Source: Prevotellaceae bacterium (GTDB lineage: Bacteria; Bacteroidota; Bacteroidia; Bacteroidales; UBA932). Taken from it: a stretch of DNA of 35,735 nucleotides. The notes under the pieces are model-generated. The model did no database searches, was not told the origin of the DNA, and saw nothing but the letters and a program-made list of their open reading frames with translations. A program made the translations under genes and the position numbers. Shown here one piece after another: positions 1-31,262 of this stretch (positions within the stretch are counted from its first letter, which is position 1; each line of letters starts with the position of its first letter). The DNA is taken from positions 1 through 35,735 of the forward strand of contig JAIRRX010000015.1 in the NCBI GenBank assembly GCA_031255755.1, read 5' to 3'.

Positions 1-2874
1 ATCAGTTCTATCGGTTATAAGACGCAGGAAATTGTTACAGGCAGCCGTAGTGTAATTGATGTTGCACTTGAACCGGATGTTGCTCAAATTGAAGAATCGT
101 TTGTTGTTGCTTACGGCACAGCAAGAAAAAGCACTTACACGGGTTCTGCAGCGGTAGTAAAAGCAGAGGCTATAAAGGATATGCCTAAAGCATCATTTGA
201 AACGGCTTTGGTCGGAACTGTTTCGGGTTTACAAATGACTCCGGGTTCGGGACAAGCCGGTTCATCTGTTAATATTCGAATAAGAGGTACTGGTTCTATG
301 AATGCATCTAATGAACCTTTATATGTAATTGACGGAGTTCCTATGAATAGCGGAGATTTGTCGAAATTAAACTATTCATCCAATAATGCTATGAATAGTA
401 TTAATCCTGCTGACATTGAGAGTATTACGGTGCTGAAAGATGCTGCCGCATCATCTCTGTATGGCTCGCGTGCCGCTAATGGTATTATTATGATTACTAC
501 AAAATCAGGGAAAAAAGGTAAAATGAATTTAAGTTTTAAAGCCAATGTTGGCTTTACTCCTTCGTTTGCTTACAACAACTGGGAAAAAGCATCTCCTCAA
601 GACCAAATTGATTATAGCCTTGAATTGTGGACTGCATGGAACATGAGGGATGAGCCGACTACATATCCTACATATGAATTAGCAAGAGCGCAGGCTGAAC
701 AGGATTACAAAAACCTGATTGGAGATGATCCTCGTGGCTTTTTCGATTGGGAAGATGCATTATTAAGAACAGCTACTTTTCAGAATTATGATTTAAGCGC
801 AAGCGGTGGTACAGAAAACAATACATACTATTTTTCGCTTGGATATACAAAAGAAAATGGACGTGTTTATGTTAACGACCTTTCTCGATATAGTGGACGA
901 TTAAATGTTACTCAAAAAATTACAAACTTTTTGGATATGACTTCAAATGTTTCTTTTTCATCCGTAGAAAAAAACGGTTTTAATGATGGTTACAATAACG
1001 GAGCGAACTATTTTTTGATGATACGTAATCTTCTGTTCGATAATTGGTGGCCAAAAAATGAAGATGGTACATGGCATACGGATCCATGGAGAACTTACGC
1101 ACAAAATGTATTGTATTATGATAATTACAGAGAAAATGTATCAAAAATTAACAGGTTCTCAATAAATGAATCATTAAAAGCTAATATTACTCCTGATTTA
1201 TCTGTAAAAACTATATTCAGTTACGATGAAACCAGGCTTGATGATTATGTATGGCGAGCAGCAAATCATTACGACCTTAGCGCTCGTTCAGTTAATGGCG
1301 TTGTTAGAAATATACATAATAAATGGTTAAAAATGGTTTCTACCAGTACCATAAACTATGATTATACATTTAAAGATGTACACAATATTGCATTATTGGC
1401 AGGTTTTGAGGTAGAAGATAATCAATTCAATTTAGTACGCGCAGAAGGAACAAACCTGCCATCCTTAACATCAAAAACAGTAGCAACGGCAGGAACAAAA
1501 ACATCAAACGCTTACTATTCGGGTAACAGTATGATGTCATTTTTGAGCAGGTTGGAATATAACTATGATAACAAATATTATTTTAGTGCAAGTTTCAGGA
1601 GAGATGGTTCATCTAAATTGTCGCCTTCAGTACGATGGGGTAATTTTTGGTCGGTTTCCGGCGCGTGGAAAATTAATAGCGAGAAATTCATGCAATCTGT
1701 CGAGTGGTTGTCAAATTTAAGAATTAAAACATCTTATGGAATAAATGGCACTATGCCCGAACCTAATTATGGACATATTGCTCTGTTTTCGTATTCTAAT
1801 TATACTTATGGCAATAATCCCGGAGGTAGAATTACTACAACAGCAGCTGAAACTCTTAAATGGGAAACTAACTATACTCTTAATCTTGGCGTAGAAGCTG
1901 GATTTTTTAATAACAGACTTAATATTAATCTTGAATATTATGACAGAGTATCAAAAAATCTGTTGCAAGATGCGCCAATATCACGCATAACGGGATTTAA
2001 TAGTATTCTTCAAAATATCGGAGCAATGGATAATAGCGGATTTGAAATAGAAATAGGAGGAGATATTATAAAAAGAAATGATTTTAGATGGAATATGAGT
2101 ATCAACGGGGCAACATTACGCAGCAGGGTTACCAAACTTTATGAAGGCGCTGATATTATTTGGTATGACCCAACTGGAGACGATAATCAAGCCAGATTTA
2201 TATATAGAGAAGGAAAATCGCCTAAATCATTTTATGGAAGAGAATGGGCAGGAGTTGACCCTGACAACGGAGAACCCATGTGGTACACCAACAACACAAC
2301 TACAACTCCATATAAAACTGTAAATGGCCGTCCTGTTACAAATTTATATGACCAGGCAAGTGATATAATAACGGGATGTGCAGATCCCAAATTGTTTGGA
2401 GGTATAAATAGTGATATTTCGTGGAAAGGTTTTAGCGTTTACCTAAATTTCTCTTATTCTCTTGGCGGAGATGTATATAATGCATTTGAAAGATATGTGA
2501 ATGACGACGGATACTTTACTACTCGTACACGAACAGAAAAAGCAATGGATTATTGGAAAAAACCCGGTGATATAACGCAAGCTCCACGCTTAGGGCTTGA
2601 TGAAAACACAAAAGCATTTAAAAGTCATCAAAGCAGATGGTTGTATAAAAACAATTATATACGCTTAAAAAATATTACAATATCATACAATCTACCGAAA
2701 AATATTGTAGAAAAGGTAAAATTAACAAACTGTCGCGTTTATTTTTCAGGTATGAATTTATTAACTTTTGCAAGTCAAAACTATTTTGACCCCGAAGTAA
2801 GCGTGTATGGAGTTAAAAGTTGGGAAATGCCTATTGGCAAAACATTTACATTTGGAATAGAACTTAATTTATAA
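1..2874 (+). CDS. SusC/RagA-family TonB-linked outer membrane protein, 5'-truncated by window edge
   Basis: Frame +1 is open from base 1 (ISSIGYKTQEIVTGSRSVIDVALEPDVAQIEESFVVAYGTARKSTYTGSAAVVK...), so the listed Met at 181 is internal. Plug-like motifs 'VRIRGTGSMNASNEPLYVIDGVP' style and 'ESITVLKDAAASSLYGSRAANGIIMITTKSGKKG'; followed directly by SusD. Confidence 0.95.
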   Translation: MSSIGYKTQEIVTGSRSVIDVALEPDVAQIEESFVVAYGTARKSTYTGSAAVVKAEAIKDMPKASFETALVGTVSGLQMTPGSGQAGSSVNIRIRGTGSMNASNEPLYVIDGVPMNSGDLSKLNYSSNNAMNSINPADIESITVLKDAAASSLYGSRAANGIIMITTKSGKKGKMNLSFKANVGFTPSFAYNNWEKASPQDQIDYSLELWTAWNMRDEPTTYPTYELARAQAEQDYKNLIGDDPRGFFDWEDALLRTATFQNYDLSASGGTENNTYYFSLGYTKENGRVYVNDLSRYSGRLNVTQKITNFLDMTSNVSFSSVEKNGFNDGYNNGANYFLMIRNLLFDNWWPKNEDGTWHTDPWRTYAQNVLYYDNYRENVSKINRFSINESLKANITPDLSVKTIFSYDETRLDDYVWRAANHYDLSARSVNGVVRNIHNKWLKMVSTSTINYDYTFKDVHNIALLAGFEVEDNQFNLVRAEGTNLPSLTSKTVATAGTKTSNAYYSGNSMMSFLSRLEYNYDNKYYFSASFRRDGSSKLSPSVRWGNFWSVSGAWKINSEKFMQSVEWLSNLRIKTSYGINGTMPEPNYGHIALFSYSNYTYGNNPGGRITTTAAETLKWETNYTLNLGVEAGFFNNRLNINLEYYDRVSKNLLQDAPISRITGFNSILQNIGAMDNSGFEIEIGGDIIKRNDFRWNMSINGATLRSRVTKLYEGADIIWYDPTGDDNQARFIYREGKSPKSFYGREWAGVDPDNGEPMWYTNNTTTTPYKTVNGRPVTNLYDQASDIITGCADPKLFGGINSDISWKGFSVYLNFSYSLGGDVYNAFERYVNDDGYFTTRTRTEKAMDYWKKPGDITQAPRLGLDENTKAFKSHQSRWLYKNNYIRLKNITISYNLPKNIVEKVKLTNCRVYFSGMNLLTFASQNYFDPEVSVYGVKSWEMPIGKTFTFGIELNL

Positions 2875-2890
2875 AATAAATAAAATTATT

Positions 2891-4426
2891 ATGAAAAAGA
2901 AAATATTTTTTACGCTTTTGGTGTCTGTTATTATAACTTTAAGCGTATCATCGTGTCAGGATTTTTTAGATAAATATCCATCGGAATCAGTTCCAGCAGC
3001 AATGGCAATAGGTAATGCCAACGATGCTGAAGTTGCAATCAATGGCGTATATCACGCCATGGCATCGTATGCTTATTATGGCCGCGATATGGTATTGTAT
3101 GCAGAATATAAAGGCGGTGATTTTGGTATTACAACTACAGGTATTTCAGGTGATGCTTTATACTTTTTTACTCATACATCAACCAGCGGTGCATATTCAG
3201 ACTTTTGGTCTCAATGCTATTTTGTGTTACTTCAGGTAAACAACATACTTGAATGTATTGAATCTGGTAAAGTAGATGCGCAAACTCCCGATGATATTGC
3301 AAAAGTAAATTCTGTTAAAGGACAGGCTTTGACAATAAGAGCGCTTGTTCATTTCGATTTGGCAAGATTATATGGTTATCCTTATCTTAAAGATAACGGA
3401 GCGAGCCTTGGCGCAGCTGTTGTTACAAACACATTGGCTGCAAGTTCCCAATTGAGACGTAATACTGTTGCCGAATGTTATGAGCAGGCAATAATCGATT
3501 TAACCGAAGTAATAAATTCTTCTTTGTTGCCTGTTACAAAAAAGAATGGCTATATAAACCAATATGGAGCTAAATCATTACTTGCAAGAATATATCTCTA
3601 CAAAGGTGAGTGGGAAAATGCTTACACAATGGCTAAAGATGTAATAGATAACGGAGGATATACTCCTTATACCGATGCAAATTGGGTAGATTCATGGAAA
3701 TCGCAATTCGGAACAGAATCTATTTTTGAATTGTTTGTTGTACCAAGCGAAACCGATTTGGGTAGCACTTCTCCATGCAGTTATTTTGCTCCAAGAAAAA
3801 ATCTTCCAGACAGAAGAGAACTTGGTCCAATTATGGTAAGCGACCAGTTTTTTGATATGTTTAAAGAATCTGTTCATGACACAGATGTACGTTGGGATGT
3901 TTTTGGAATAGATGAATTCGGACGCGAAGACCCTGCATCCAGTTTTTATATTCAAGATAGAAAAGGTTGGATGATGAAATACGAAGGAGATGGAAAATCA
4001 ACACGTTCAGCAGTAAACATTAAAATTATAAGATTAACGGAAGTTCTTCTAATTGGAGCAGAGGCGGCATTGAAGAAATCATCGCCAAACAAAACAGATG
4101 CTGCTTCTTGGATTAATATTGTAAGAAAAAGAAATCCTGCATTGACAGATTTAGATGGCAGCGAAAGCATCAATGTATTGTTAGATGAAGTTGCTTTGCA
4201 AAGACGTATTGACCTTATTGGCGAAGGTCATCGATATTTTGATGTATTGAGAACAGGAGGCACTATTTCATATACCGATGGAGGAGGTATTTTCCCTCAA
4301 CGGCAGGCTGGAGGTAGAGATGCCACTGTTGATTGGAATTTCAATAAGTGCGTACTCCCAATAGGTATTAATGAAATCAACGCCAATCCGGCAATCAAAG
4401 ATCAGCAAAATCCCGGATATAATTAA
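2891..4426 (+). CDS. SusD/RagB-family nutrient-binding outer membrane lipoprotein
   Basis: Signal peptide with lipobox (VSSCQDFLDKYPSES), TPR-like helices, C-terminal 'QRRIDLIGEGHRYFDVLRTG' and 'LPIGINEINANPAIKDQQNPGYN' typical of SusD; 16 nt after SusC. Confidence 0.95.
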   Translation: MKKKIFFTLLVSVIITLSVSSCQDFLDKYPSESVPAAMAIGNANDAEVAINGVYHAMASYAYYGRDMVLYAEYKGGDFGITTTGISGDALYFFTHTSTSGAYSDFWSQCYFVLLQVNNILECIESGKVDAQTPDDIAKVNSVKGQALTIRALVHFDLARLYGYPYLKDNGASLGAAVVTNTLAASSQLRRNTVAECYEQAIIDLTEVINSSLLPVTKKNGYINQYGAKSLLARIYLYKGEWENAYTMAKDVIDNGGYTPYTDANWVDSWKSQFGTESIFELFVVPSETDLGSTSPCSYFAPRKNLPDRRELGPIMVSDQFFDMFKESVHDTDVRWDVFGIDEFGREDPASSFYIQDRKGWMMKYEGDGKSTRSAVNIKIIRLTEVLLIGAEAALKKSSPNKTDAASWINIVRKRNPALTDLDGSESINVLLDEVALQRRIDLIGEGHRYFDVLRTGGTISYTDGGGIFPQRQAGGRDATVDWNFNKCVLPIGINEINANPAIKDQQNPGYN

Positions 4427-17979: not shown

Positions 17980-19632
17980 ATGGAAAAAATTATTAAATTA
18001 ATGAAAGATGTACCGGCAATTCGCTGGACAGCGCTATTATTATTGGCATTTGCCATGTTTTGTTCCTATATCTTTATGGATATTCTTTCGCCTATCAAAG
18101 ATTTGATGCAATCAACTCGTGGCTGGGATTCAACCGCTTTCGGAACAATGCAGGGTTCGGAAACATTTTTAAATGTTTTTATTTTCTTTTTGATTTTTGC
18201 AGGTATCATTCTTGATAAAATGGGTGTTCGGTTTACCGCTATTTTATCTGGCATCGTAATGCTTGCAGGAGCGGCAATAAACTGGTATGCGGTAACCGAA
18301 GCTTTTCAAAATTCAGGTTTGCATACATGGTTTACAAATAATCTTAATTACATTCCCGGCTTTGATGAATTGGGTATTTCGCCGTTTTACGCGGGTATGC
18401 CCGCATCTGCCAAGTTTGCATCGGTTGGCTTTATGATTTTTGGCTGTGGCGTTGAAATGGCGGGAATTACAGTTTCACGCGGAATCGTAAAATGGTTCAA
18501 AGGCAAAGAAATGGCTTTAGCAATGGGGTCGGAAATGGCATTGGCGCGTTTGGGCGTTGCTACGTGTATGATTTTCTCTCCTGTATTTGCAAAATGGGGC
18601 GGAAATATTGATGTTTCGCGTTCGGTGGCATTCGGCGTAATACTTCTGATGATTGCTCTGATAATGTTTATAGCCTATTTCTTTATGGATAGAAAATTAG
18701 ATGCGCAGACAGGCGAAGCTGAAGAAAAAGACGACCCGTTCAAAATTAAAGATATTGGAAAAATACTTTCAAGCAGCGGTTTTTGGTTGGTTGCTTTGCT
18801 TTGTGTTCTTTATTATTCCGCAATTTTCCCATTCCAGAAATATGCGGTAAACATGCTGCAATGCAATTTGACATTTATTCCGCCTGCCGAAGGTTCTTTC
18901 TGGGCATCAAATTTATGTACGATAATTCAATATTTTATAATGTTGATGGTTGCTGCTGCTGCTTTTGCAAGTAATTTCAGTAAAAAAACATTAAAAATTG
19001 TATTATTGACGACATCTGTCGTATGCTTAATCATTTTCTGTGTTATGGGTTATATGCGTCAATCTGCCGAAACGATTTTTGCAGTATTTCCTCTTCTGGC
19101 AGTTGGAATTACGCCAATTATCGGAAAATATGTGGATACAAAAGGTAAAGCTGCATCAATGCTTATGATTGGTTCTATTTTATTGATTGCATGTCATTTG
19201 ACGTTTGCATTTGTTTTGCCGATGTTCAAAGGAAGCGCTATCGGCGGCATAATGGTTGCATACATAACAATTTTAGTACTTGGGTCATCATTCTCTCTTG
19301 TTCCGGCATCATTGTGGCCCAGCGTTCCGAAATTAGTTGATAACAAAGTTATCGGTTCGGCTTATGCGTTGATTTTCTGGATACAAAATATAGGTTTGTG
19401 GCTCTTCCCGCTATTGATTGGTAAAATTTTGGATGCATCAAATCCGACAGTTGTACAGCAATTAAAGGATAACCTGATTACACCCGAAGCGGCAGCTACT
19501 TCGTATGACTATACCAATCCGCTTTTAATGCTGGCTTGTTTGGGCGTTGCAGCGTTGATTTTAGGATTTTATCTTAAAGCCGTTGATAAACGCAAAGGTT
19601 ACGGACTTGAACTGCCTAACATCAAAAAATAA
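17980..19632 (+). CDS. MFS transporter (paralogue 1)
   Basis: About 12 hydrophobic segments; 'FAGIILDKMGVRFTAILSGIVM' MFS motif A-like; 'VKWFKGKEMALAMGSEMALARLGVA'. Confidence 0.9.
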   Translation: MEKIIKLMKDVPAIRWTALLLLAFAMFCSYIFMDILSPIKDLMQSTRGWDSTAFGTMQGSETFLNVFIFFLIFAGIILDKMGVRFTAILSGIVMLAGAAINWYAVTEAFQNSGLHTWFTNNLNYIPGFDELGISPFYAGMPASAKFASVGFMIFGCGVEMAGITVSRGIVKWFKGKEMALAMGSEMALARLGVATCMIFSPVFAKWGGNIDVSRSVAFGVILLMIALIMFIAYFFMDRKLDAQTGEAEEKDDPFKIKDIGKILSSSGFWLVALLCVLYYSAIFPFQKYAVNMLQCNLTFIPPAEGSFWASNLCTIIQYFIMLMVAAAAFASNFSKKTLKIVLLTTSVVCLIIFCVMGYMRQSAETIFAVFPLLAVGITPIIGKYVDTKGKAASMLMIGSILLIACHLTFAFVLPMFKGSAIGGIMVAYITILVLGSSFSLVPASLWPSVPKLVDNKVIGSAYALIFWIQNIGLWLFPLLIGKILDASNPTVVQQLKDNLITPEAAATSYDYTNPLLMLACLGVAALILGFYLKAVDKRKGYGLELPNIKK

Positions 19633-19663: not shown

Positions 19664-21079
19664 ATGGTACAAAAATTACAATCTGTTTTACGCGACTCGA
19701 AAACCGCACGTTGGTGTGTATTGCTTTGTTTGTCGCTGCCAATGTTTGCATCGTATTTCTTCGATGATATTTTTTCTACGGTAAGTCAAATGTTTGACAA
19801 TCCCGCCTTGCTCGAATTAGGCTGGGATTCGGCAAATTATGGCGTATATGGTGGCGCTTATTCTTTATTGTGTGTATGGGGAGGACTTATTATATGCGGA
19901 ATCTTGCTTGATAAATGGGGCGTGCGTTTTACGGGAACATTATTTGTCATATTAATGGTTGCAGGGTCGTTAATTGTTGCTTACGCTTTATCTCCTGCAT
20001 TTAAAGACGGTTCGGTCGCCGCTTTTATAAGCAGTCTCGGATTTGCTAAACCTTCGCTTACACTTGCTACAGCAGGATGCGCCATCTTCGGATTAGGCAG
20101 CGAAATTGCAGGAGTTGCCGTAACCAAATCAATAGCAAAATGGTTCAAAGGCAGGGAAATGGCTTTGGCTATGGGATTACAGTTGGCTTTGGCTCGACTT
20201 GGCACCGCTACGGCAATGCTGATTGCTCCAATGGTTATTGCAACAAAAGGCGAAGTTCCGTTATCCGAATCAAATAATATGGCTGAAATAGGATTGTTTT
20301 TAATGATTATTGGAGTTGTTACATGGTTTGTATTTATTTCGTTTGATAAACGGTTGGATAAACAGGATGTTGAAGCTGCATCTGCAAATAGTGCAAAGAA
20401 AAGCGAAGATGATAAATTCAAATTTTCGGATATAGGAAAAATATTAACCAACAAAAATTTTATACTTATAGCGTTGTTGTGCGTATTTTTTTATTGCTGC
20501 ATAATTTCGTTCAAACGATTTGCAACATCAATACTTATTCCACGTTTCGGACTTGAAGACGATGTTGCTTCGTACATGGCAACTCTGCTTCCTTTTACTC
20601 CGATTATTTTTACACCTCTGTTCGGCTCGCTGGTTGATTTCAAAGGCAAAGCCACAACGTGGATGATAATAGGCGCTGTTATTGTTTTGATATCTCATCT
20701 TATTTTCGGATTTGCGCCAAGCGTATCAATATTCGGATTTATAAGTTTTGCACTGCTCGGAATAGGTTATTCGCTTGTGCCTGCAGCAATGTGGCAATCG
20801 GTACCGAAAATTATTCCCGAAAACAAATTGGGAACAGCATATTCATTAATTTACTGGATACAGAATATGGGAATGTTGCTTGTACCGATAGTTATTGGAA
20901 GTATTTTGAAAACAACAGATGAAGCAGATAATGCAACAAAAGTTGAAAATGCCGTAAATGCCGAATTGGTATTTATAGGTTTAGCCTGCATTGCGATAAT
21001 AGTTTCGTTGCTGTTGAAAAAATCATCTAACAATCATCCCGAATTGCGATTAGACGAACCGAATAAGATTAAAAAATAA
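19664..21079 (+). CDS. MFS transporter (paralogue 2)
   Basis: Same architecture as upstream gene: 'ICGILLDKWGVRFTGTLFVILM', 'AKWFKGREMALAMGLQLALARLGTA', 'LVPAAMWQSVPKIIPENKLGTAYSLIYWIQNMG'. Confidence 0.9.
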   Translation: MVQKLQSVLRDSKTARWCVLLCLSLPMFASYFFDDIFSTVSQMFDNPALLELGWDSANYGVYGGAYSLLCVWGGLIICGILLDKWGVRFTGTLFVILMVAGSLIVAYALSPAFKDGSVAAFISSLGFAKPSLTLATAGCAIFGLGSEIAGVAVTKSIAKWFKGREMALAMGLQLALARLGTATAMLIAPMVIATKGEVPLSESNNMAEIGLFLMIIGVVTWFVFISFDKRLDKQDVEAASANSAKKSEDDKFKFSDIGKILTNKNFILIALLCVFFYCCIISFKRFATSILIPRFGLEDDVASYMATLLPFTPIIFTPLFGSLVDFKGKATTWMIIGAVIVLISHLIFGFAPSVSIFGFISFALLGIGYSLVPAAMWQSVPKIIPENKLGTAYSLIYWIQNMGMLLVPIVIGSILKTTDEADNATKVENAVNAELVFIGLACIAIIVSLLLKKSSNNHPELRLDEPNKIKK

Positions 21080-21098
21080 AAAACGATTATTGACAATT

Positions 21099-21131
21099 AA
21101 AAAATCCTCGATGAAAAATCGAGGATTTTTT
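21099..21131. terminator. Intrinsic terminator after MFS pair
   Basis: AAAAATCCTCGAT-GAAAA-ATCGAGGATTTTTT, T-tract follows. Confidence 0.85.
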
Positions 21132-21213
21132 ATTATATATGATAAAAATTGATATGGAAAAAGTCTTGTTTAAAATTCATAACTTATGAAATAGATTTTA
21201 TCAATTTAAAAAC

Positions 21214-22566
21214 CTAAAAATCATATTTCAAACCTATATTTAAGCCAAGATTGAACTGTTTTTCGGTTCTGAAACTTTGAGGCTGATTATTATCTTTTAT
21301 ATAATACACAACATTTGGCTCAATATAAATTCCCATGTTTTTTATAAAGTTATATGATACTCCCAAACCTGCATTTGTAGAAAACTGTATGCCGCGTACG
21401 CTTCTGTTTTCTATTGTGTAATATTTACTTTCGGAAATTTCCTGAACTGCTTTTATATAACTGTACGATACGCCTTTTTCTGCGGCAAATTCGCCTGTCA
21501 GATAAATATTGAAATTATTTTTTTTGAAAAATAAAAATTCAAATCCTACAGGTATTCCGACATAATGTATTTTTTGCTGAATCTTTTTACCTTCGGTACT
21601 GAATTCCGATAAAAAATATGAATATGAAAATCCTGTTTTTGCTATTATGTTTTTGTTGATATTTTTCTTAATGCGTATGCCGAAATTCAAAGGATGTTTA
21701 TGTTTCATATCAATTTTATCATCTGTTTTCAAACTTTCGGGCGATACAGTCGGAGTTGCCGACATAATTGGCATGTCTGCTATTGAAGATTGTGCATTAT
21801 GTGAATTTTTATTTGCGAAATCACGTACTATAGAATTGCTGCCTATGCTATTTCCGGATTCAAATGCAAATGTCCATGTATTTTTATTCTGTTCTTTTGG
21901 GGTTTCTGTTTCAAACTGATTCCACCATTCATCATTCGTGTTAATTTGTTTGATTTCCTGCTTGTTTTCCTCTATTGATTTTTGTTTATCTGTCGAATAT
22001 GACGATTCGGTTTGTTTTGTTATTGCAACTTTTGCAATAGTTCTTTCGACTTCATTCACAGATTTATCGGTTAAAATATCAATAAAGTTAAGAGTAAATT
22101 TATTGTAGTCAATTTTTTCTATTTTATCAACCGACCTGTTGATGCTTTCATCTGATTTTGTTTGTATTAATTCATTATTTTTATCATTGTTTGAATTATA
22201 TGCAATTTTGACATTATTGTCTGTATTTTCGCTTACAGGCTTGTTTGTCTGTGTATTCTGTTCTATATTTGCAATATGATTATTGCTATTATTTTCTGTT
22301 ATTGTATCACTTTTTCCCTTTTTTATGTCTGTTTGACTTATTGTAATATCAGGAATATCAATATTATCAGGTTTTATCAAAAACATTACAAGCAGTAGAG
22401 CAACAGCAATTCCTGTTGTACCGTAAAAATAAAATAAAGGAATGATTTTACGCTGACGTTTCTTTTGAATACGTTCACGTATAATCTCCCAATCCGATTC
22501 AAATATTTCGGATTCGTGATTATACAGTTTTTCGTGAAATAAATCTTTTAATTTATCATTACTCAT
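21214..22566 (-). CDS. Putative anti-sigma-like protein: cytoplasmic N-terminus, single TM helix, long low-complexity linker, C-terminal outer-membrane beta-barrel domain
   Basis: Residues 41-64 hydrophobic (IIPLFYFYGTTGIAVALLLVMFLI); about 220-residue N/T/K/E/S-rich linker; last ~160 residues alternating beta strands ending in ...LNIGLKYDF (terminal aromatic). 13 nt downstream of the ECF sigma gene. Confidence 0.75.
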   Translation of the reverse strand: MSNDKLKDLFHEKLYNHESEIFESDWEIIRERIQKKRQRKIIPLFYFYGTTGIAVALLLVMFLIKPDNIDIPDITISQTDIKKGKSDTITENNSNNHIANIEQNTQTNKPVSENTDNNVKIAYNSNNDKNNELIQTKSDESINRSVDKIEKIDYNKFTLNFIDILTDKSVNEVERTIAKVAITKQTESSYSTDKQKSIEENKQEIKQINTNDEWWNQFETETPKEQNKNTWTFAFESGNSIGSNSIVRDFANKNSHNAQSSIADMPIMSATPTVSPESLKTDDKIDMKHKHPLNFGIRIKKNINKNIIAKTGFSYSYFLSEFSTEGKKIQQKIHYVGIPVGFEFLFFKKNNFNIYLTGEFAAEKGVSYSYIKAVQEISESKYYTIENRSVRGIQFSTNAGLGVSYNFIKNMGIYIEPNVVYYIKDNNQPQSFRTEKQFNLGLNIGLKYDF

Positions 22567-22579
22567 ATTTCCACATTGT

Positions 22580-23122
22580 TTATTTATATCTTGATTCTAT
22601 TTTTTTCTGTAGTAAAATTCTTGCTTTGAAATAATTAGACCTTACCGCAGAAGGTTTAATTCCAAGTATTACTGCCACTTCATCATGAGAATAACCTTCG
22701 ATTGCATGAAGATTAAAAACGCTACGAAACGACATTGGCAATTCCTTTACTAAATTCATCAATTCGCCAACTCCAATTTGACTGTCGGTATCTGATATTG
22801 AACTGTCAACAAGTTGTAATTCATCATTATTACTGTTAATACTTTGGAACGTCATTTTCTTTACTTTCCGTAAATTTTCAAGACAGAGATTTACAAACAT
22901 TTTACGTATCCATCCTTCGAGCGATCCTTTTCGGTCAAACATTCCTATTTTATCAAACAGTTTTACAAATCCGTCATGCATGGTATCTCTTGCTTCATCT
23001 TCATCACACATATATCTCACACACACACTTAGCATTTTTTTTGCATAGCGTTCGTACAACTCTCGCTGGGCATTAATGTCTTTATTTATACAGCCTTCTA
23101 CCAAGTGTTGTTCTTCAGTCAT
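22580..23122 (-). CDS. ECF-type RNA polymerase sigma factor
   Basis: 'LYERYAKKMLSVCVRYMCDEDEARDTMHDGFVKLFDKIGMFDRKGSLEGWIRKMFVNLCLENLRK' (region 2) and 'LPMSFRSVFNLHAIEGYSHDEVAVILGIKPSAVRSNYFKARILLQKKI' (region 4). Confidence 0.95.
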   Translation of the reverse strand: MTEEQHLVEGCINKDINAQRELYERYAKKMLSVCVRYMCDEDEARDTMHDGFVKLFDKIGMFDRKGSLEGWIRKMFVNLCLENLRKVKKMTFQSINSNNDELQLVDSSISDTDSQIGVGELMNLVKELPMSFRSVFNLHAIEGYSHDEVAVILGIKPSAVRSNYFKARILLQKKIESRYK

Positions 23123-23201
23123 ATCGTTGTAAACAAAAATAATTTTACACTCAGCATTTATTGTAAGATGATTTTTTTAGTTAAAATGATGCAAAATATA
23201 T

Positions 23202-24305
23202 CTATTTTTTAATATAATTTAACCATTCTCCTATAATTTGCCAATATTTACGATGAAAATTTTCACCTTTTTCATCTGAATATAATGATAAAAAACTTTG
23301 ATTATCGCTGTCGTCATGTTTCAATTTGATTGTAAAATCTTTGTTATACAAACTTGTATGCTCGGGATGAAACTGAGTTCCTGCAACATGTTTGTATTTT
23401 TGATGAACAATTGCTTCAATAATTTTCCCATCCGGCGAAACTGCTGCAACATCAATATCTTTACCTGTTTTTTTTACTGCCTGATGATGCGAGCTTAAAA
23501 CATAAGGTTCGGTTTTGCCGATAATTTCAGAAAAAATATTTTCTCCTTGCGGCTTGATTTTGTGAAAATTATAACCTGTAAGTTCATCATCATAATCAAA
23601 ATACGAATTATAGTTTTTGTGCTGTGCATTCGGCGTATTCAGTACATCTTCCGCTGTTGCGATATTATAAACTTCCATTGGAATATCCTGAATCATTGTT
23701 CCGCCTGTTGCACAGTTCATTGTTTGCATGCCGAGACAGAAACCTATAACCGTATAATTCGGATTTTGTTCAAGTAATGCGACATGATTTTCATTTTGAC
23801 TTCCGCCAAGCAAATGAAACAAAAACGACAGTTCAAAAAAATGACGATACGGATCGGTAATTCCTGACATCAAATGCGTTTTTTCTCCAAAACATTCTGC
23901 CGGAATATCAGGACCGCCAAAGAAAAAAATACCTTCGGTTTGTTCAAATATTTCCTTAAAAATATTGCTGCAACCGTTTTGTTCATATATGTTTTTTGCC
24001 GACAGTTCGTTTTCGCATTTCACGAGTTTCATCATCAAATTATTTTCGTCTATATATTTTTGACTGCGTTCAAAATCATAATTTTGCCGTACATGATAAA
24101 TGCCTATCATTCCAAAACTGTCAACATTGGGAAGTATGTTATTATCAACCAAATATCTGAATGTTTTGATATTTGCAACCGTAGGGTTGACAATGGCAAC
24201 ATTGTATTGAGGCAACTGTTTTTCATGCTTTTCATCGTTTTTTTGCGGTTGCGAGCATGATATAATTGCAAATATAAATACAAACAGCGATAATATTTTT
24301 TTCAT
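23202..24305 (-). CDS. Class I glutamine amidotransferase-like / peptidase C26-like lipoprotein
   Basis: Lipobox (IFAIISCSQPQ), nucleophile motif 'VIGFCLGMQTMNCATGG', C-terminal 'GTQFHPEHTSLYNKDF' with His-x-Glu. Confidence 0.8.
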   Translation of the reverse strand: MKKILSLFVFIFAIISCSQPQKNDEKHEKQLPQYNVAIVNPTVANIKTFRYLVDNNILPNVDSFGMIGIYHVRQNYDFERSQKYIDENNLMMKLVKCENELSAKNIYEQNGCSNIFKEIFEQTEGIFFFGGPDIPAECFGEKTHLMSGITDPYRHFFELSFLFHLLGGSQNENHVALLEQNPNYTVIGFCLGMQTMNCATGGTMIQDIPMEVYNIATAEDVLNTPNAQHKNYNSYFDYDDELTGYNFHKIKPQGENIFSEIIGKTEPYVLSSHHQAVKKTGKDIDVAAVSPDGKIIEAIVHQKYKHVAGTQFHPEHTSLYNKDFTIKLKHDDSDNQSFLSLYSDEKGENFHRKYWQIIGEWLNYIKK

Positions 24306-24331: not shown

Positions 24332-24829
24332 TTATTTGTCGGAACCTTCAAATGTTGCGATTTCTTTTCCCATTTGATTAAAAACAAGCTTGTTACCTAT
24401 AACAATACAGGCATCTACACGTGTAAGAACGGATGAAAATAAATTTTCGGGATTTTTATATAAACATGCTTTTTGAGTAGAAACAATGTTCTCTAATTTA
24501 AGAATATCTCCCGAAAGATAATATGACCCGCCAAAGTTATTGCAGCCTAATGAACCAGATATTTTGTCATCATCACTGAAAATGATATATGCAGGATTTT
24601 CAGGATGCATTTCAACTTCTTTACCATCAATGTTTTTCAAAATCCATTTGGTATTTTCAAAACTCATATCCTGTGTATTGTTTGAATTTTCGTGTTTTAC
24701 ATCTTTTTGCAGATTTTCTGTAGAATTTACGTTTGACTGTAAATCATTATCAGAATTTTTTTTCTTTTGAGAACTGCAAGCGGCTAATACACAAGCCGAA
24801 ACCGTAATAATAAACCAATACTTTTTCAT
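24332..24829 (-). CDS. META-domain (HslJ-like) lipoprotein
   Basis: Lipobox (VLAACSSQKKK), 'FENTKWILKNIDGKEV', 'IIFSDDDKISGSLGCNNFGGSYYLSGDILKLENIVSTQKAC'. Confidence 0.85.
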   Translation of the reverse strand: MKKYWFIITVSACVLAACSSQKKKNSDNDLQSNVNSTENLQKDVKHENSNNTQDMSFENTKWILKNIDGKEVEMHPENPAYIIFSDDDKISGSLGCNNFGGSYYLSGDILKLENIVSTQKACLYKNPENLFSSVLTRVDACIVIGNKLVFNQMGKEIATFEGSDK

Positions 24830-29009: not shown

Positions 29010-29723
29010 ATGAAAAAACTATTTATGTTTTTAGCAGCAACAGGAACGACCCTTGCTGCAAATTTAGCAATCGCAGAAGAAACAGTAGAAGCTACAGTTC
29101 CTTTGCATCAAACACTCAAGAAAAACTTTATTGATGGTGGTCCTCTGTTTATGACGCCGATTATTCTGTGTCTTATTCTTGGATTAGCATTTGTAATTGA
29201 AAGGATTATTTACCTGAACCTTGCAGATGTTAATACAAAAAAACTTGTTGATGATGTTGAAACAGCGCTGGCAAAAGGCGGCATTGAAGCAGCAAAAGAT
29301 TTGTGCCGCAATACACGCGGACCTGTTGCAAGTATTTTTTATCAAGGTCTTGACCGTGCAGGTGAAGGTGTTGAAATGGTAGAAAAAGCCGTTGTTAATT
29401 ATGGCGGAGTACAAATGGGTAAACTTGAAAGCAACCTTTCATGGATTGCGTTGTTTATTGCAATATCGCCTTCGTTAGGGTTCTTGGGAACAGTTATCGG
29501 CATGGTGGTGGCTTTCGACGCTATTGAAACTGCAGGACAGATTTCTCCGAGCGTTGTAGCATCAGGTATGAAAGTTGCTCTTATTACAACTGTTGCAGGT
29601 CTTATTGTAGCTATTGTTCTCCAACTTTTCTACAACTACATTCTTGCAAAAATTGATTCCATTGTTAATAAAATGGAAGATGCTTCAATTAGTCTTGTTG
29701 ATTTGGTTATAAAAAATAAATAA
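29010..29723 (+). CDS. exbB: MotA/TolQ/ExbB proton channel family protein
   Basis: 'PIILCLILGLAFVIERIIYLN', 'LSWIALFIAISPSLGFLGTVIGMVVAFDAIETAGQISPSVVASGMKVALITTVAGLIVAIVLQLFYNYI'. Confidence 0.95.
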   Translation: MKKLFMFLAATGTTLAANLAIAEETVEATVPLHQTLKKNFIDGGPLFMTPIILCLILGLAFVIERIIYLNLADVNTKKLVDDVETALAKGGIEAAKDLCRNTRGPVASIFYQGLDRAGEGVEMVEKAVVNYGGVQMGKLESNLSWIALFIAISPSLGFLGTVIGMVVAFDAIETAGQISPSVVASGMKVALITTVAGLIVAIVLQLFYNYILAKIDSIVNKMEDASISLVDLVIKNK

Positions 29724-29726
29724 ATC

Positions 29727-30179
29727 ATGTCGAGAAAAACATTAAACATAGTAACAATAATCCTGTTTATCGTTTCTATTATTGTGGGCATATTTACATT
29801 TGCCAATGCAACTGCAATACAAAACGGAGAATCGGGATTAGTAAATCCGTTGTTTTACTGGACAAGTTTATTACTCATTATTACAGTGATATTGGCATTA
29901 TTAATGCCGCTTCCTTCAATACTGAAAAATCCGAAAGCAATAAAACGAACACTGTTTATTATTGTGGGAATTGCCGTTGCTTTTGGGCTGGTTTATGTTT
30001 TATCCCAAGGTAAACCCGATGGGGAAGCAATAATGAGTACTTTGACTCCGATACAACAGAATGAATATACGGACAATTCCGTTATTGCAAATATGAACAT
30101 AATTGCAGTTGAAATTGCTTTGCTGCTCGCAGTTGTAGCAGTTTTGGCATCCGCAGTTAAAGGTTTTGTAAAGAAATAA
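29727..30179 (+). CDS. Four-TM membrane protein of unknown function in exbBD cluster
   Basis: Four hydrophobic segments; 3 nt after exbB and 22 nt before exbD. Confidence 0.8.
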   Translation: MSRKTLNIVTIILFIVSIIVGIFTFANATAIQNGESGLVNPLFYWTSLLLIITVILALLMPLPSILKNPKAIKRTLFIIVGIAVAFGLVYVLSQGKPDGEAIMSTLTPIQQNEYTDNSVIANMNIIAVEIALLLAVVAVLASAVKGFVKK

Positions 30180-30201
30180 TTTTTGTAAAAAGCAAACAGA
30201 T

Positions 30202-30786
30202 ATGGCAAGAAAAAAGAAAGAAATGCCCGAACTGAACGGAGCCGGTATGTCCGACATATCGTTTCTTTTGCTTTGCTTCTTTTTGATGACATCCAGCATG
30301 GATGAGAGTATGGGTATAAGCCGTCAGTTGCCGCCGATACCACCGGAAGACCAACAGATACAGATTGACATCAAGCAACACAATGTGTTGCAGGTATTGG
30401 TTGACGGGCAAGACAGACTCTCTGTAAACCAAAGGCAAATGGATATAAAGGATTTGAAGGATGCGACTAAGGAATTTATCCTGAACCCGACAAATGACCA
30501 GACAAAATCAAGCAAAAAGGAAGAAGATATACCGGGCGTAGGAAATGTTATGATATCGGAGGCAGTGATTTCGTTGCAAAATGTGCGCAGTACAAGTTAT
30601 GAAGTATATTTACAGGTACAAAACCAACTTACTGCGGCATATAACGAGTTGCGTAATGAAGAATCCGTAGCAAGATTCGGAAGAAAATTTGCTGACTTGG
30701 ATGAAATTCAACGCGAAGCAATTACAAAAATTTACAGGCAAAGAATATCGGAATCACCTCCGAAAGACACACGTAAAAAGAAATAG
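30202..30786 (+). CDS. exbD: ExbD/TolR-family biopolymer transport protein (1)
   Basis: 'MPELNGAGMSDISFLLLCFFLMTSSMDESMGISRQLPPIP': single TM with conserved Asp, downstream of exbB. Confidence 0.92.
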   Translation: MARKKKEMPELNGAGMSDISFLLLCFFLMTSSMDESMGISRQLPPIPPEDQQIQIDIKQHNVLQVLVDGQDRLSVNQRQMDIKDLKDATKEFILNPTNDQTKSSKKEEDIPGVGNVMISEAVISLQNVRSTSYEVYLQVQNQLTAAYNELRNEESVARFGRKFADLDEIQREAITKIYRQRISESPPKDTRKKK

Positions 30787-30797
30787 GAGATAATACA

Positions 30798-31262
30798 ATG
30801 GCAAAATTTACAGGAAAAAAAGGAAAAAAACTTGCAGGTTTTAGCACCGCTTCAATGGGCGATATTGTATTTATTCTGTTATTCTTTTTTATGGTAACTA
30901 CTACAATGCGCGAAACGGAAGTAAAAGTAAGAACCGATGTTCCAAAAGCATCGGAAGTTACCAAACTTGAACGTAAAGATCTTACCGTTTATATTAATAT
31001 AGGACCTCCTATTGCGTCCGAACAGGCAAGATACGGTACGGATGCGTGTATTCAGCTAAACGATTCGTTTAAAACAGTTGACGATATTCGTAACTTTATA
31101 GCATCATTCCGTGAAGGTTTGGCGGAAGCAGACCGTCCGTACATGACAACTGCCCTTAAAATAGACAAGGAAACAAGAATGGGCATAGTGTCTGATGTGA
31201 AAGAAGAATTGAGGCGATGTCAGGCGTTAAAAATTATGTACAATGCTATCAAAGCCGAATAA
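30798..31262 (+). CDS. exbD: ExbD/TolR-family biopolymer transport protein (2)
   Basis: 'FSTASMGDIVFILLFFFMVTTTMRETEVKVRTDVPKAS', 'LKIDKETRMGIVSDVKEELRRCQALKIMYNA'. Confidence 0.92.
   Translation: MAKFTGKKGKKLAGFSTASMGDIVFILLFFFMVTTTMRETEVKVRTDVPKASEVTKLERKDLTVYINIGPPIASEQARYGTDACIQLNDSFKTVDDIRNFIASFREGLAEADRPYMTTALKIDKETRMGIVSDVKEELRRCQALKIMYNAIKAE

Follow-up and report, generated by a model that had tools for sequence, protein, structure and literature searches.

The locus and its conserved gene pair

The window, by which we mean the whole 35,735-nt stretch of DNA analysed here (contig JAIRRX010000015.1 of a Prevotellaceae bacterium), carries on its minus strand a 180-aa ORF (22580-23122) followed, after a gap of 13 nt, by a 450-aa ORF (21214-22566). 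A sequence-only reading had described these as an ECF sigma gene and a protein that appears to span both membranes, and its ORFs, strand, coordinates and gap are exact. The first ORF bears both expected Pfam domains of a sigma factor (Sigma70 r2, 1.7e-11; Sigma70 r4_2, 2.8e-11). The features of the locus, including the subdivisions of the 450-aa protein justified below, are as follows.

22580..23122, minus strand: ECF sigma factor, 180 aa (Sigma70 r2 and r4_2; 66-77% identity, nine genus loci)
21214..22566, minus strand: Dma/Reo-type anti-sigma factor, 450 aa (PF13505, homologues, alignment, AlphaFold2)
22447..22566, minus strand: residues 1-40, cytoplasmic two-helix N-terminus with a near-invariant Trp26, presumed to bind sigma (alignment conservation, modelled helices)
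22375..22437, minus strand: residues 44-64, single transmembrane (TM) helix (hydropathy, AlphaFold2)
21883..22374, minus strand: residues 65-228, predicted disordered periplasmic tether (low pLDDT, lowest conservation in the protein)
21217..21882, minus strand: residues 229-450, predicted OmpA-like outer-membrane barrel (PF13505, AlphaFold2, Foldseek)
23166..23193, minus strand: putative autoregulatory ECF promoter TGCATC-N17-CATCT (conserved block, motif counts)
21098..21132, no strand assigned: terminator-like hairpin lying where the anti-sigma gene and the MFS gene converge
23202..24305, minus strand: C26/GATase-like lipoprotein gene, collinear and upstream of sigma (PF07722; kept in nine genus loci)
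24332..24829, minus strand: META-domain (HslJ-like) lipoprotein gene, collinear and upstream of sigma (PF03724; kept in nine genus loci)

It is uncertain whether the two lipoprotein genes upstream of sigma are part of the sigma/anti-sigma system. They were considered as regulon members and set aside, because the ECF element was not seen before the META gene; the element before the sigma gene sits between that gene and the C26 gene. Elsewhere in the window, two tandem MFS transporter genes (17980-19632 and 19664-21079, plus strand) converge with the anti-sigma gene, an ExbB gene and two ExbD-like genes with an unassigned ORF between them occupy 29010-31262 (plus strand), and a gene for a TonB-dependent receptor with a plug domain lies together with a SusD-like gene at the window start (1-4426, plus strand). 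An Rfam search of the whole window found no RNA families.

A protein search detected homologues of the 450-aa protein in 38 of 61 genomes, including all 11 of the genus. In the ten other genus genomes the ORF shows 54-64% identity, and a sigma gene lies upstream of it in every one of them (in one case clipped by a contig end), so that conservation of the ORF goes far beyond chance. The genus members are named 'Prevotellaceae bacterium' MAGs in the contig scan described below, and from the style of their isolate names we take them to be, probably, termite-gut assemblies. A sigma gene is adjacent upstream in all 30 loci inspected from the 61-genome search. A wider profile scan of genome contigs, seeded with a closer alignment of homologues, yielded 80 named Bacteroidales loci, with matches in Phocaeicola, Bacteroides, Barnesiella, Dysgonomonas and Parabacteroides among others; sigma adjoins the barrel protein or is fused to it in 78 of these, and the remaining two end at contig edges. 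At four loci (L115, L128, L130 and L137) sigma factor, TM helix, tether and barrel form a single ORF, in which the sigma factor replaces the anti-sigma N-terminus, i.e. these are membrane-tethered sigma factors. A locus of Bacteroides heparinolyticus (L127) resembles a broken fusion of this kind. The genome to which the window belongs contains nine sigma-like matches and one Dma-type protein; a second was sought there and not found.

Architecture of the 450-aa protein

The C-terminal part of the 450-aa protein matches the OMP_b-brl family (PF13505) at residues 281-443, above the curated cut-off, while a search of NCBIfam gave no match to any of its models and a sequence search of the PDB returned weak matches only, mostly within the linker. 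Hydropathy indicates one TM segment at residues 46-64. The AlphaFold2 model, computed from an alignment of 68 sequences (the protein and 67 homologues), places helices at 3-14 and 23-37 and the TM helix at 44-63, in agreement with the single helix that had been proposed to follow the N-terminal segment. The residues ahead of the TM helix are rich in lysine and arginine, which favours an N-in orientation. Confidence in the model is low across about 75-222 and exceeds a pLDDT of 90 over most of 290-450; the predicted strands comprise 231-239 (pLDDT about 81) and 286-449. Among PDB structures the best Foldseek matches are TM domains of OmpA (best E-value 5.1e-8, TM-score by target 0.61), with alignments that span 222-228 columns. 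The model thus points to an OmpA-like barrel that starts near residue 229 and probably has eight strands. The C-terminal domain models as an outer-membrane barrel, not as a soluble periplasmic domain, as the sequence-only reading had expected, and its last residue is indeed Phe (..GLKYDF), a terminal residue that fits the barrel-assembly signal.

The proportions of the protein differ from those first suggested. Since the first barrel strand lies at 231-239, the linker comprises about 164 residues (65-228) instead of some 220, and the barrel, by AlphaFold2 and the OmpA alignments, about 222 (229-450) instead of some 160. A tether of 164 residues could bridge the periplasm even well below full extension. 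Within the genus, column identity is lowest in the tether (0.53, compared with 0.84 in the N-terminus and 0.76 in the barrel), as expected for a spacer.

Residues 1-40 presumably bind the sigma factor. Searches of this segment against the anti-sigma profiles of Pfam and NCBIfam, which the sequence-only reading had proposed as a check, found no matches, and profile searches of the pair against the same two collections found no FecR domain. Mean-field coupling between sigma and the N-terminus was not above that between sigma and the barrel, a comparison with too little power at an effective 60 sequences.

A promoter-like element and its predicted targets

The gap before the sigma genes holds a conserved block, of which the copy in the window is the TGCATC-N17-CATCT at 23166-23193. 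When the upstream regions of 92 sigma genes were scanned for TGCANY-N17-CATYT, 38 carried it, of which 29 lie outside the genus; dinucleotide shuffles gave 0.25 on average. This is not an independent comparison, because the pattern was drawn up from the same upstream sequences on which it was first counted; with a 16-nt spacer it yields nine matches upstream of sigma genes. A scan of the 11 genus genomes, semi-independent of the pattern definition, found 33 sites as against three for the reversed pattern. Twenty-four of these 33 precede three gene families, namely the sigma gene (nine sites), a 114-aa protein (seven) and a lipoprotein of about 270 aa (eight). The window's own genome has exactly one site ahead of each of the three, and its predicted targets are a lipoprotein pair (L158:1557-3026, contig C83) and the 114-aa protein (L138, contig C73). 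A second lipoprotein gene directly follows that of the ~270-aa lipoprotein in both loci read.

Because the element stands before the sigma gene itself, the sigma factor probably reads it, and TGCAnC-N17-CATCT points to autoregulation together with a small genus regulon made up of the 114-aa protein and the tandem lipoproteins. In a Pfam search the 114-aa protein and both lipoproteins all remained below the cut-off. The 114-aa family is present in all 11 genus genomes and the ~270-aa lipoprotein in nine; searches of the other relatives showed neither, save for two marginal matches in one of them (G018). No description of the element turned up in the searchable literature, outside which the primary Dma1 and EcfO papers lie, and it may already be known.

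The predicted output can be compared with that of better known relatives through NigD, whose production depends on the EcfO-Reo pair (PMC13114119), a pair induced in Phocaeicola vulgatus by an envelope-damaging antibacterial protein (PMC9308784). A locus of Phocaeicola coprocola (L077) encodes a homologue of the 450-aa protein (tblastn, 5e-28), and there the sigma gene has a divergently oriented NigD gene (PF17415, 2e-25) on one side and the anti-sigma gene downstream; this gene order matches the EcfO-Reo region of P. vulgatus, the orthology being read from gene order and the published text. NigD-like genes lie in the flanks of 20 scanned loci, and four relatives (G013, G014, G017 and G038) have NigD no more than about 2.2 kb from the homologue. 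The genus genomes do not show the NigD output of the EcfO/Dma1 branch: NigD (PF17415) was found in none of the 11, several of which are incomplete. There is perhaps an even chance that the genus switch has kept the promoter code and, without NigD, directs a genus-restricted output of lipoprotein pair and 114-aa protein, i.e. that the sensor is conserved and the response lineage-specific.

A probable trans-envelope switch and its relatives

The Dma-type layout put forward by the sequence-only reading, and homology to Dma proteins, are borne out by the sigma pairing, the modelled barrel, homologous loci of Phocaeicola and Bacteroides whose gene order is the published one, and the Dma3-like fusions, and the pair is a well-supported addition to the already described Dma/Reo family. 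Given the architecture, the homology, the conserved pairing and the common promoter-like element, all observed computationally, we read the pair as a Dma/Reo-type sigma/anti-sigma switch that acts across the envelope and is released by a change in the outer membrane (probability about 0.85). The TM helix would anchor the 450-aa protein in the inner membrane and the OmpA-like barrel would anchor it in the outer membrane, with the disordered tether crossing the periplasm between both anchors, while the two-helix N-terminus would sequester the sigma factor in the cytoplasm. In this way the protein may itself sense the cell surface. A change at the barrel or in the outer membrane, most likely envelope stress, would disable the tethered protein and set the sigma factor free, either conformationally or by proteolysis, and the freed sigma factor would then act at TGCAnC-N17-CATCT promoters to express both genes of the pair along with a small number of genus-specific targets.

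The release step could take a specific form, which we regard as about as probable as its contrary: a damaged or misassembled barrel would expose the tether to cutting by a periplasmic protease, RseP would then cut the TM helix, and the N-terminus would be freed together with the sigma factor. This differs from the switch outlined above in the release step only. The natural fusions attach their sigma factor straight to the TM helix, so that cutting it free is probably needed, and the genome encodes an RseP homologue; RseP is near-universal, however, so that its presence says little, and the tether is poorly conserved. A quite different reading, that of a structural or adhesive OmpA-like barrel which is a chance neighbour of the sigma gene and has no anti-sigma role, could appeal to the barrel being the only part that matches a curated domain. 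It is very improbable, because the protein is paired or fused with sigma across the Bacteroidales and because its cytoplasmic N-terminus and TM helix are conserved, parts for which a barrel that loses a signal peptide on export would have no use. Moreover, for homologues both an anti-sigma function and their induction by proteins that damage the envelope have been published (PMC9308784, PMC13114119, PMC13088901).

Dma1 and Dma2 mutants of Bacteroides thetaiotaomicron overproduce vesicles (PMC13088901), and the shared architecture might suggest that the 450-aa protein, like Dma1, regulates the formation of outer membrane vesicles. We consider this rather unlikely. Dma1 works via NigD1 (PMC13088901), and since the search of the 11 genus genomes gave no NigD, we do not extend the vesicle inference to the genus; Dma2 works by another route, which leaves some probability for a vesicle role. 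The lack of a NigD match also cautions against assuming that every Dma/Reo member works via NigD and vesicles.

With the trans-envelope switch as the preferred reading, the wider interest of the pair is that a single Dma/Reo polypeptide appears to relay outer-membrane information to RNA polymerase. A promoter element common to Dma/Reo sigma genes would make their regulons readable from genomes, including those of uncultured organisms, and together with the genus-specific targets it is the most useful new lead.

Among known systems, EcfO-Reo of P. vulgatus and Bacteroides fragilis likewise has an ECF sigma gene followed by that of an anti-sigma factor spanning from the cytoplasm to an outer-membrane barrel (PMC9308784, PMC13114119), but the EcfO regulon includes NigD, whereas the predicted targets in the genus, where none was detected, are the 114-aa protein and two lipoproteins. 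Dma1/Das1 and Dma2/Das2 of B. thetaiotaomicron, compared by their published description, are likewise encoded beside an ECF sigma gene and begin with a sigma-binding part, as presumed here, which is followed by TM helix, disordered tether and barrel; yet they have other target genes, and the vesicle phenotype is theirs (PMC13088901). Dma3 of the same species has TM helix, tether and barrel, with related single-ORF forms in other Bacteroidales, but carries the sigma factor as its own N-terminus, while in the window sigma factor and barrel protein are encoded by separate genes (PMC13088901). In FecI/FecR-type signalling an outer-membrane signal likewise reaches an ECF sigma factor (for an example see PMC11637429); there receptor and anti-sigma factor are two proteins, whereas here one chain is predicted to serve as both.
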